In this document: piece by piece, positions 2,791-27,564 of the stretch | Numbering within the stretch: position 1 is the stretch's first letter | How the letters are laid out: each line of letters opens with the position of its first letter | Source of the DNA: Candidatus Woesearchaeota archaeon | Lineage (GTDB): Archaea; Nanobdellota; Nanobdellia; Woesearchaeales; JACPJR01 | DNA: 64,000 nucleotides | NCBI GenBank assembly: GCA_016187565.1 | Contig: JACPJR010000014.1 | Span: 62,001 to 126,000, forward strand | Direction of reading: 5' to 3' | Made by a program: the position numbers and the translations under genes | The notes under the pieces: model-generated | The model's database searches: none | What the model was told of the DNA's origin: nothing | The model's input: only the letters and a program-made list of their open reading frames with translations

Positions 2791-2878
2791 GCTTAGAATG
2801 TTCTGAACAGAAGCAGTAGAGGTATATTAATGCTCCGATTTGTTTGTGCATGGAAAAATAAAAATGCGTCGGCCGGGA

Positions 2879-2909
2879 CTTTCGTTCCGAAGGATTAACC
2901 TTTCAGGCA
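2879..2909 (-). other. tRNA-Gly intron 2 (31 nt, between tRNA positions 59 and 60)
   Basis: Once intron 1 is removed, the central helix is TTCG (2915-2912) with CGAA (2884-2881), the 5' bulge is AA|T (cut 2910/2909), the 3' bulge is AG|T (cut 2879/2878), and the outer helix is the T-stem itself (2945-2949 with 2877-2873). Inside, again after two mismatches, a 5-bp stem closes a hairpin. The exon between the introns is only 6 nt (2915-2910). The 5' half of the outer helix is separated from the central helix by intron 1, so ordered splicing is implied. Confidence 0.8.
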
Positions 2910-2915
2910 TTCGAA

Positions 2916-2944
2916 TTTCCGTTGTGGAACCATGTTTCCACCTT
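2916..2944 (-). other. tRNA-Gly intron 1 (29 nt, between tRNA positions 53 and 54)
   Basis: The bulge-helix-bulge motif consists of a 4-bp central helix TCCG (2950-2947) with CGGA (2921-2918), 5' bulge GG|A (cut between 2945 and 2944), 3' bulge AA|T (cut between 2916 and 2915), and an outer helix of 2955-2951 with 2914-2910 (A-T, G-C, T-G, T-A, T-A). Inside, after two mismatches, a 6-bp stem GTGGAA/TTCCAC closes a 6-nt loop. This is the substrate shape of the archaeal tRNA splicing endonuclease. Confidence 0.82.
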
Positions 2945-3134
2945 CCCGGATCAAAGGCTTGGAAGGCCTCTATCCTAGCCATTAGACTACCGACGCGTGA
3001 GGGGCATGAAAAGAGGTTTCTATATAAAGGTTATTGTCTTTTTGAACATCCCTCCTGTATACAGTAAGGCCTCTGTTTCTGGATAATGTAGTATCAGTTA
3101 TTCTCTTATAAACATTTACAAAAGATTTATAGGT

Positions 3135-14063: not shown

Positions 14064-14768
14064 CTATTCATCCAGAGGACGAGGGCTAATATCAGTCGTT
14101 AAAGCCCTATAGAGCAGAAGTCGAGGCAATGGTTGTCCGTCTTCTGAACAATCTCTCTGCTCAAATGTTGTTGGCGTGATAAATATCTCCTCTTCTCTTC
14201 CTCCCTTAGGAAGACTTCGTAGGTACACAATGTCTATGGGTGTCGAGACCGTATCAATAGGGGCTAGGTGTATGAATGCTTTATTTCTCCAGAGACCTTT
14301 TTTATAATGACTAGGAAGTCCTTCTGGACAAGTAACCTTGGTTCTATCATCAAAGGCTTGATGAAGTCGTTGAAGAAGCCATTCATCACGGTTAGCAATA
14401 TACCCACTTGACCACCACATATTGGTCACTACCATGAGATCAATGTCTGGCCGTATCCCTTGTTTGGTGATTTGCCCTCCAATAACATACACCGAAAAAA
14501 AAGCACAGCCTGTTTTATATGCACCAGTCTCTTGATCCTGCTGTTCAAATGCCCAATCATTCTCGTCAGGCTCTCCTCGGTAGCCTTCCTCTGACTCTCG
14601 TCGTAATTCCTCGTCAGACTCCGTATCGCGAAAATAGTCATTCGCTAAAGCGTCAACGGTGTGGATAAGCGTCTGAACATTCCCCTTGTCTTTAGGGGTT
14701 AGCCTTGCAAGAAACTGGTCTCTTTGCGCAATCTCCTCGAGGGTTAAGGTTTTGTCTACCTGTCTCAT
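14064..14768 (-). CDS. Nucleotidyltransferase-like protein, 234 aa
   Basis: Residues about 95-112 read [22 protein letters not shown], the GG...DID pattern of a pol-beta nucleotidyltransferase fold (Asp pair near 107-109). A third acidic position may be PIDIVYL (about 180). An acidic helical N-terminus precedes it. The start codon overlaps the stop of the upstream parvulin gene (ATGA), so the two are co-transcribed and coupled. The target is unknown; the sequence does not look like CCA-adding, poly(A) or kanamycin transferases. Confidence 0.6.
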
Positions 14769-25770: not shown

Positions 25771-27564
25771 CTATTTCTTTTTTTCAGGTAATGCTAGTTT
25801 AAGGTTGAGCTCCTCGAGCTGGTCTTTTGCAACCTCAGATGGAGCTTCGTCAAGCAAAGAAATACAATGCTTGTTCTTTGGAAATGCAATAACCTCACGA
25901 ATAGATTCATTGTTGGTCATTAAAGCGACTAATCGATCAAGACCAAAGGCAATGCCTCCATGAGGGGGGGCTCCATAACGAAATGCTTCGAGAAGGAATC
26001 CGAATTTTGCTTCTGCTTCCTTCTTACTAATGCCCAGCAAGGTGAACACTTTTTCTTGAACATCCCGTTGATGAATACGAATGCTTCCTCCTCCTACTTC
26101 GACGCCATTGAGGACTAAATCATAAGCTTTTGCTCGAATCTTCGCGAGTTCTTCATGCTTGTTTGATCCAAGATAGACCATATCCTCATCCTTAGGACTA
26201 GTAAACGGATGATGGACAGCAACATGTCGTTGTTGGTCCTCGTCATATTCAAGCAGAGGAAAATCAGTAATCCAGCAGAAATTCCATTCTTTGTCATTGA
26301 TAAGCTGTAATCGTTTCCCTAGTTCTAAACGTAGATGGCCTAAGGCAACATTAGTCGTATGATGCTTGTGGTCTGCCACAAATAACAGCAGATCTCCTTC
26401 TTTTGCTTTTGTTTCCTTTGCCACTGCCTTAAGTACATCTTCGGGAAAGAATTTGACAATGGAACTTTCGAGCCTTCCTTCTTTTGTCATCTTCATCCAG
26501 GCCAGTCCACCAGAACCATGGATTTTGACGGTCTCGGTGAGTTCCTCAATATCTTTGCGTGAGAATGTTGCACAGCCAGGAGCGTTAATACATTTTACCG
26601 AGCCATTGGCCTTAAGCACATTCAGGAATACTGAAAAGTTACTCTTCTCCATAATCTGAGAGACATCATGTAAGGGCAACGCAAATCGAAGATCGGGTTT
26701 ATCACTTCCGTAGATATTCATTGCCTCTTGATAGGTCATGCGTCTGAAAGGAATTTTCAGTTCAACATCAAGGACTTTTTTGAAAAGTTCTTTCACTAAG
26801 CCTTCATTCAACATAAAAATATCTTCTTCTTCAACAAAACTCATCTCAATATCAATCTGGGTAAATTCTGGCTGTCTATCCGCTCGTAGGTCTTCATCTC
26901 TAAAACAACGGGCAATCTGGAAATATCTGTCTAACCCACTGACCATGAAGAGTTGCTTGAAGAGTTGTGGCGATTGGGGCAAGGCAAAGAACTTTCCTGG
27001 ATGTACTCGTGAGGGAACGAGGTAATCACGTGCTCCTTCAGGAGTAGAGCGTGCCAGCATTGGTGTTTCTATCTCAAGAAATTGATGCGCATCAAGGTAC
27101 TGTCTCGTCACTTGGTAGACCTTGTGGCGAAGGACTAAGTTTTTCTGCATCAAAGGCCTTCGTAAATCAATGTAACGGTATTTTAACCTGATTTCTTCAT
27201 TACTGTTTGCTCGATCGTCAACCTCAAGTGGCGGGGTGTCTGCTTTGCTGAGTAAACTAACCTCATCAACAAGTACCTCAATCTGTCCTGTTGCTAACTT
27301 TAGATTCTCCAACCGCTCGCCCCTTGGTCGTACAGTCCCTTTAATCTGGAGAACATCCTCTCGACTTACCTTTTCTGCAATTTGGTGAACAGCTTTTTGA
27401 TGCTTGGGATCAAAAACAACCTGCGTAAGTCCATACCTATCTCGCAGATCAATAAAGATTATTCCTCCATGGTCTCGCCTACTCTGATTCCAGCCACAGA
27501 GCATAACCTTCTTTTTGTTATCATTAAGGCGTAATTCTCCACAGGTATGGGTTCTCATGGGCAT
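25771..27564 (-). CDS. aspS: Aspartyl-tRNA synthetase, bacterial type with GAD domain
   Basis: About 597 residues, the length of bacterial AspRS rather than archaeal/eukaryotic forms (about 430-440). It has an N-terminal OB fold (anticodon binding), class II motif 1, motif 2 with FRDEDLRADRQPEFTQ, a GAD insertion (about 290-400), and motif 3 GIAFGLDRLVALM near the end. The reaction is charging tRNA(Asp), possibly also tRNA(Asn), with aspartate. I place the start at 27564 because AGGTG lies 8 nt upstream; ATG 27558 and GTG 27573 are alternatives. A TATA element lies at 27591-27597. A bacterial-type enzyme here indicates gene replacement by transfer. Confidence 0.92.
   Translation of the reverse strand: MPMRTHTCGELRLNDNKKKVMLCGWNQSRRDHGGIIFIDLRDRYGLTQVVFDPKHQKAVHQIAEKVSREDVLQIKGTVRPRGERLENLKLATGQIEVLVDEVSLLSKADTPPLEVDDRANSNEEIRLKYRYIDLRRPLMQKNLVLRHKVYQVTRQYLDAHQFLEIETPMLARSTPEGARDYLVPSRVHPGKFFALPQSPQLFKQLFMVSGLDRYFQIARCFRDEDLRADRQPEFTQIDIEMSFVEEEDIFMLNEGLVKELFKKVLDVELKIPFRRMTYQEAMNIYGSDKPDLRFALPLHDVSQIMEKSNFSVFLNVLKANGSVKCINAPGCATFSRKDIEELTETVKIHGSGGLAWMKMTKEGRLESSIVKFFPEDVLKAVAKETKAKEGDLLLFVADHKHHTTNVALGHLRLELGKRLQLINDKEWNFCWITDFPLLEYDEDQQRHVAVHHPFTSPKDEDMVYLGSNKHEELAKIRAKAYDLVLNGVEVGGGSIRIHQRDVQEKVFTLLGISKKEAEAKFGFLLEAFRYGAPPHGGIAFGLDRLVALMTNNESIREVIAFPKNKHCISLLDEAPSEVAKDQLEELNLKLALPEKKK

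Follow-up and report, generated by a model that had tools for sequence, protein, structure and literature searches.

A tRNA-Gly(UCC) gene with two T-loop introns predicted to be spliced in order, and a single alpha-type splicing endonuclease gene, in a member of the Woesearchaeales

Introduction

Archaeal tRNA genes that carry several introns at non-canonical positions, to be removed in a set order, are well established, chiefly from the Thermoproteales. In these and other archaea two or three short bulge-helix-bulge (BHB) introns interrupt a single tRNA, and the systems have been described together with (alpha-beta)2 splicing endonucleases. Some tRNA introns lie so close to one another that the motif of the next takes shape only once its predecessor has been excised (PMC8450103, tRNAscan-SE 2.0), and ordered splicing as such is therefore not new. 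Multiple order-dependent introns are also credited to Sugahara 2008 and Tocchini-Valentini 2009 in the account given by PMC6379350. Endonucleases of the alpha4 type are narrow in specificity, and relaxed motifs, classed as hBH, HBh' and BHL (PMC6379350), are removed efficiently by (alpha-beta)2 and epsilon2 enzymes only (PMC6379350, PMC4033280). In the accepted account, diversification of tRNA introns was possible only in lineages whose endonuclease had acquired either a second subunit or a specificity loop.

Here we describe a tRNA-Gly(UCC) gene in a 64,000-nucleotide stretch of DNA (the window) from a genome of the Woesearchaeales, one that stands alone in its family among the genomes compared. 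As in the Thermoproteales, the introns are short, of BHB type and at non-canonical positions. Unlike the described cases, both lie in one T-loop round a 6-nt exon, the pair recurs in several families, and the endonuclease gene found (EndA) is a single one of alpha type. What is new is the lineage, the recurrence and the mismatch with the enzyme. A search of the literature for tRNA introns in Woesearchaeota by title, abstract and term counts returned none, which is weak evidence, with subscription journals mostly outside its coverage.

A tRNA-Gly(UCC) gene interrupted twice in the T-loop

The gene, identified from the sequence and by a BHB and cloverleaf search, occupies positions 2865..2996 of the window on the minus strand, to which all features below also belong, and comprises 132 nt including two introns; the mature tRNA has 72 nt. 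Exon 1 (2945..2996, tRNA positions 1-53) supplies the 5' strand of the acceptor stem, the D arm, the anticodon arm, the variable loop and the 5' strand of the T-stem. It is followed by intron 1 (AAGGTGGAAACATGGTTCCACAACGGAAA, 29 nt, 2916..2944) at 53/54, by the 6-nt exon 2 (TTCGAA, positions 54-59, 2910..2915), by intron 2 (TGCCTGAAAGGTTAATCCTTCGGAACGAAAG, 31 nt, 2879..2909) at 59/60, and by exon 3 (2865..2878), which runs from position 60 to the discriminator 73. Both introns were read directly and returned by the search, and the T arm is laid out as CCGGG / 29 nt / TTCGAA / 31 nt / TCCCGG. The spliced product, GCGTCGGTAGTCTAATGGCTAGGATAGAGGCCTTCCAAGCCTTTGATCCGGGTTCGAATCCCGGCCGACGCA, has the anticodon TCC. 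Its acceptor stem (GCGTCGG/CCGACGC), D arm, anticodon arm (loop CTTCCAA) and T arm are all intact, and its T-loop reads TTCGAAT, the universal sequence. Like other archaeal BHB tRNA introns, both are short and their removal restores a functional-looking tRNA. Group I and group II introns are excluded by lengths of 29 and 31 nt, which are far too short, and if the two introns left as one piece together with the exon between them, TTCGAA would go too and the T-loop would be destroyed.

Our own script sought BHB introns anywhere and scored the spliced product as a cloverleaf, with the intron sites not supplied. It returned exactly these two introns with a score of 30.5; under the same scoring, five intact tRNAs from the same genome reach 27.5-31.5, and with zero or one intron removed from the locus the search gives no tRNA. 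The top score among 2000 dinucleotide shuffles is 20.5. Elsewhere in the window it is 23, on tiles that lack the whole tRNA-Gly(UCC) gene and serve as a control only. The T-loop inserts are real, and the blind search confirms the preliminary description of this DNA, which had placed the same two introns round the same 6-nt exon and proposed a BHB search as a check.

Scans of the window with ARAGORN, and with Rfam at its gathering score, gave no hit at all and so missed the gene; with a loose threshold Rfam matched the locus at E 0.1. Because the standard tRNA finders used here miss doubly interrupted genes, woesearchaeal tRNA sets are probably under-called. A short match to intron 1 within the same genome (contig C13) reads as coding sequence and was taken as chance.

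A tRNA search of the 1.94-Mb, 96.7%-complete genome, for which the tRNA inventory is partial, found this locus as the sole UCC gene. A separate intact tRNA-Gly(UCC) gene, a prospect raised in the preliminary description, was sought genome-wide, and none was found. Gly(GCC) is intact in this genome, and Gly(CCC) carries a 43-nt anticodon-loop intron. GGA, which by standard pairing is read by the UCC anticodon only, is the most used Gly codon in the long ORFs of the window (456/1031). Inspection by eye further suggests a candidate TATA-box-like element (TTTATATA, 3021..3028) about 25-32 nt upstream of the tRNA 5' end and a T-rich run (TTTTTATTTTT, 2854..2864), a candidate terminator, adjoining the 3' end of the gene. 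Given these flanking elements, the common use of GGA and the sole UCC gene found, we consider it very likely that the gene is expressed and that the cell needs it.

Predicted splice motifs and order of splicing

The motif predicted for intron 1, BHB1, draws its partners from exon 1, intron 1 and the 6-nt exon only. It consists of a 5-bp helix h (5' strand TTTGA, 2951..2955, paired with TCGAA, 2914-2910), a 3-nt bulge (AA/T), a 4-bp helix H (5' strand TCCG, 2947..2950, paired with CGGA, 2921-2918), a 5x2 internal loop in which the 5' site (GG/A) lies, and a 6-bp hairpin. Pair probabilities in the primary transcript are 0.91-0.98 for h and 0.96-0.98 for H. For intron 2, sequence and folds indicate that the 5-bp T-stem itself acts as h of BHB2 (CCGGG, 2945..2949, paired with CCCGG, 2877-2873), followed by the bulge AG/T, a 4-bp H (5' strand TTCG, 2912..2915, paired with CGAA, 2884-2881) backed by the covariation at position 57 described below, a 5x2 internal loop with AA/T, and a hairpin. 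The junction of intron 2 carries a one-base ambiguity (T at both ends), the tRNA consensus fixes the 59/60 junction to within one base, and a paired H helix arises only from the register given here.

Both introns have the 4-bp H and the 3-nt 3' bulge of archaeal BHB tRNA introns. Because both 5' sites lie in 5x2 internal loops, the predicted motifs are of the relaxed hBH form rather than the strict symmetric BHB (hBHBh'), and they share one common design. The BHB that the preliminary description saw at each junction holds as regards the presence of a motif and fails as regards its symmetry; the likeness it noted between the introns, two mismatches and then a short hairpin, corresponds to this hBH design with its 5x2 loop. 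One feature of BHB1 counts against our preferred interpretation: its five-pair h takes in two nucleotides of the anticodon stem, so that complete formation of the one precludes that of the other.

In the primary transcript, TTTGATCCG would pair with CGGA..TCGAA to form BHB1. The splicing endonuclease, most likely the single alpha-type EndA and probably a homotetramer, would then cut intron 1 (53/54) at BHB1, and a ligase would join GGG to TTC. With intron 1 gone, the T-stem 5' strand would lie beside TTCG, CCGGG-TTCG could pair with CGAA..CCCGG to form BHB2, and removal of intron 2 (59/60) through this motif would leave the mature T arm. The T-stem adjoins TTCG, and BHB2 is contiguous, only when intron 1 has been removed; since BHB2 needs the T-stem beside TTCG, it would arise only after intron 1 leaves. 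As the exon helix of BHB2 is absent beside H until that step and BHB1 is independent of it, removal of intron 1 first is strongly predicted.

The predicted folds give H of BHB2 a pair probability of 0.02 in the primary transcript and of about 0.1 in the intermediate lacking intron 1. In that intermediate the cloverleaf combined with BHB2 lies 3.2 kcal/mol above the minimum, and BHB2 is not the minimum-energy fold at 37 C, a point against our interpretation. The earlier claim was that splicing is possible in one order only; that the second motif depends on the loss of intron 1 is borne out, and the strict "only" is a strong structural prediction. The arrangement resembles the twintrons of group II/III in that neighbouring introns would be removed in order. 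It differs from them in that the introns are adjacent, protein-spliced and provided with a common exon as pairing partner, neither lying inside the other; with the exon TTCGAA separating them, they do not form a strict twintron.

T-loop introns across the Woesearchaeales

When the mature tRNA was aligned to 240 genomes of the order, many Gly tRNA matches stopped at the T-loop. Splicing these matches in silico revealed 59/60 introns in the Gly tRNAs of 14 other genomes from 12 families, as well as a 53/54 intron in genome G020 (L192); another 53/54 intron, in G116 (L193), was recognized by eye. In the source genome (G000), 59/60 introns occur in six tRNA genes: Gly(UCC), Lys(UUU), Ile(GAU), Ala(UGC), Pro(CGG) and Asp(GUC). 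A loose pattern search of this genome (132 versus 123 in the control) only supplied candidates, which were then checked by their spliced fold. The five genes found in addition to Gly(UCC), together with the many such introns across the order, bear out the earlier suggestion that the T-loop is an intron hot spot and that further T-loop introns should be sought in the genome.

Throughout the order the 59/60 introns end alike on the 3' side, in most cases with (C/T)GAAAG or (C/T)GAATG ahead of T. Like the relaxed hBH motif (PMC6379350), they keep h, the 3' bulge and H, and mostly have a loose 5' side. Exon position 57 covaries with its intron partner across 24 introns (G-C 16, A-T 7, G-G 1, swapped 0; Fisher p 4e-6 on the 23 standard pairs), in a set that was picked from truncated matches, in which at least 3/4 H pairs were demanded and related species are non-independent.

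The double arrangement was defined as a 53/54 3' site, TTCRAA and a 59/60 3' site within reach. This pattern matched 4/352 genomes of the order, the source genome being among the four by construction, and 0 in the reversed control; some 170 genomes from the rest of the class gave no match. The other double genes, tRNA-Gly(UCC) in G084 and G067 and tRNA-His(GUG) in G185, represent three families, keep the 6-nt exon and give spliced tRNAs that score 29.5-30. Each carries a third intron, located in the anticodon loop in G084 and G185 and in the D-loop in G067. Their 53/54 introns look like the HBh' form of PMC6379350. Their intron 2 is relaxed on the 5' side, with 4x1 to 6x3 loops, and would therefore need the T-stem.

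A single alpha-type splicing endonuclease gene

One EndA gene was found in the assembly, encoding a 177-aa protein of alpha type in which the catalytic residues Y113, H123 and K154 are invariant. Its closest named relatives are from Candidatus Woesearchaeota, and among solved structures it is most like the Nanoarchaeum alpha subunit, followed by the Methanocaldococcus jannaschii alpha4 enzyme. EndA is present in 92/99 genomes of the order, with a single match in 90/92. Searches for a second subunit with PF01974, PF02778 (N-domain), an order-specific profile at E<=10 and the NCBI beta-subunit model found none; a weak second PF01974 match (E 0.89) and a PF02778 match (E 0.17) each belong to an unrelated protein. 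The separate beta-subunit gene of an (alpha-beta)2 heterotetramer is absent from these searches.

In comparison with 1a79 and with Sulfolobus chains, the specificity-loop region of EndA is short. Among 110 sequences of the order no insertion of at least 4 residues relative to this EndA was found, and the CSL/ASL specificity loops are therefore absent; the lineage-specific loop insertion with a conserved Lys that characterizes broad-specificity CSL/ASL enzymes was not found. The features present are those of an alpha4 enzyme, namely a single gene of ~180 aa, the catalytic triad and an acidic L10-type self-pairing loop, conserved in the order as VD.E.DVTYYE. The M. jannaschii alpha4 EndA (PDB 1a79) is alike in its single gene, similar length, Tyr/His/Lys, acidic self-pairing loop and lack of a specificity loop, and differs in having Tyr where the order has a conserved Trp174. 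This Trp aligns with Trp384 of the broad-specificity ARMAN-2 enzyme, a residue that stacks on the bulged base (PMC12397907).

The preliminary description, noting that a heterotetrameric endonuclease handles multiple non-canonical introns, had inferred a broad-specificity enzyme in this lineage and had proposed establishing its type from the genome. A heterotetramer is unsupported: judged by its sequence the enzyme is a single alpha-type EndA, with neither a beta subunit nor a crenarchaeal- or ARMAN-type loop, and the failure of the heterotetramer inference is the most interesting part of the analysis.

Discussion

We consider it highly probable that the locus is a working, probably essential tRNA-Gly(UCC) gene whose two BHB-type T-loop introns are spliced by protein, in order, and cut by the single alpha-type EndA. 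Chance, or splice sites drawn wrongly, would be a most improbable source of the pattern: the one-base ambiguity at intron 2 leaves a little room for such an error, but the shuffles peak at 20.5 against 30.5, and the H helix pairs in one register only and covaries across species. Barely more probable is a decaying pseudogene, with GGA read by another tRNA. An assembly that is 96.7% complete could favour it; however, all stems and conserved positions are intact once the introns are removed, an intact UCC gene would rank among the strong Rfam matches and none does, and the double design is kept in three other families.

The order of removal might not be fixed if EndA could cut intron 2 first through H (TTCG/CGAA) and the intron hairpin alone. 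The primary transcript already offers the H of BHB2, and one-bulge motifs are tolerated by broad-specificity enzymes (PMC6379350), but we regard this course as improbable: without the T-stem there is neither a 3' bulge nor an exon helix, the 5' side is a 5x2 internal loop, H is hardly populated in the predicted primary transcript, and the other three double genes likewise have a loose 5' side at intron 2. A somewhat better chance, though still an unlikely one, attaches to a hetero-oligomer with a second subunit that has diverged too far to be recognized or is encoded in the ~3% absent from the assembly. As a rule, relaxed motifs are found together with (alpha-beta)2 or epsilon2 enzymes (PMC6379350), and the Nanoarchaeum alpha subunit, the closest solved relative, works with a beta subunit. 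Against such a partner stand the Pfam, order-profile and NCBI beta-model searches, which give no second match, the single match in nearly all EndA-bearing genomes of the order, and the acidic L10-type loop, which is conserved here and missing from Nanoarchaeum alpha.

For the order as a whole, we judge the chances about even that the Woesearchaeales use a homotetrameric, alpha-only EndA, with neither beta subunit nor CSL/ASL loop, that accepts relaxed BHB motifs, and that their tRNAs have become filled with T-loop introns, among them obligatorily ordered pairs round a 6-nt exon. The published rule counts against this proposal, since by that rule an alpha-only EndA without a specificity loop cuts strict motifs only (PMC6379350, PMC4033280), and neither of the enzyme types said to cut relaxed motifs efficiently was found here. 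Either this simple EndA would be broader than the rule allows, perhaps helped by Trp174, or a partner exists. If true, the homotetrameric alpha-only reading breaks the rule that makes an (alpha-beta)2 or epsilon2 enzyme a precondition of intron diversity. This large, well-sampled order combines heavily interrupted tRNA genes and relaxed motifs with what is, by sequence, only a simple enzyme. One protein and a few short RNAs would therefore suffice for a direct test of the diversity rule, and tRNA-Gly(UCC), with two introns and a common 6-nt exon, offers a compact natural system for ordered splicing.

Other interrupted tRNA genes

About 32 tRNA genes were seen in the source genome, and roughly two thirds of them look interrupted. 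D-loop introns in company with others appear in tRNA-Asp(GUC) (L233, G000:C26:9340-9510), tRNA-Arg(CCU) (L236, G000:C10) and a tRNA read as Arg(UCG) (L235, G000:C28). A heavily interrupted gene, probably tRNA-Trp, was recognized by eye at G000:C15:25050-25500 (minus strand, L234); its intron contains, again by eye, box C/D-like GATGA and CTGA, like the guide-RNA introns of euryarchaeal tRNA-Trp. A tRNA with a long variable arm (G000:C9:38559-38644, L020 1501-1586) is assigned the anticodon AAC by ARAGORN, which is odd in an archaeon, and is perhaps a misread or unusual Leu/Ser tRNA.

Elsewhere in the order, a tRNA-Gly(UCC) in G165 (C2 ~201233, L185) carries a 59/60 intron of 12 nt in which an 8-nt loop follows immediately on H; this extremely short intron of bulge-helix-loop design resembles the BHL form of PMC6379350. 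In G154 (L174, L183) the Gly tRNAs with anticodons UCC and GCC are each interrupted at 59/60, and the two introns resemble one another at the start and at the 3' end. In the source genome, Glu(CUC) (L022, G000:C3 ~14636-14760) and Glu(UUC) (L027, C33 ~27310-27430) carry nearly identical D-loop introns, whose motif by eye looks like HBh', the opposite relaxed type; their likeness suggests recent intron copying between the two genes.
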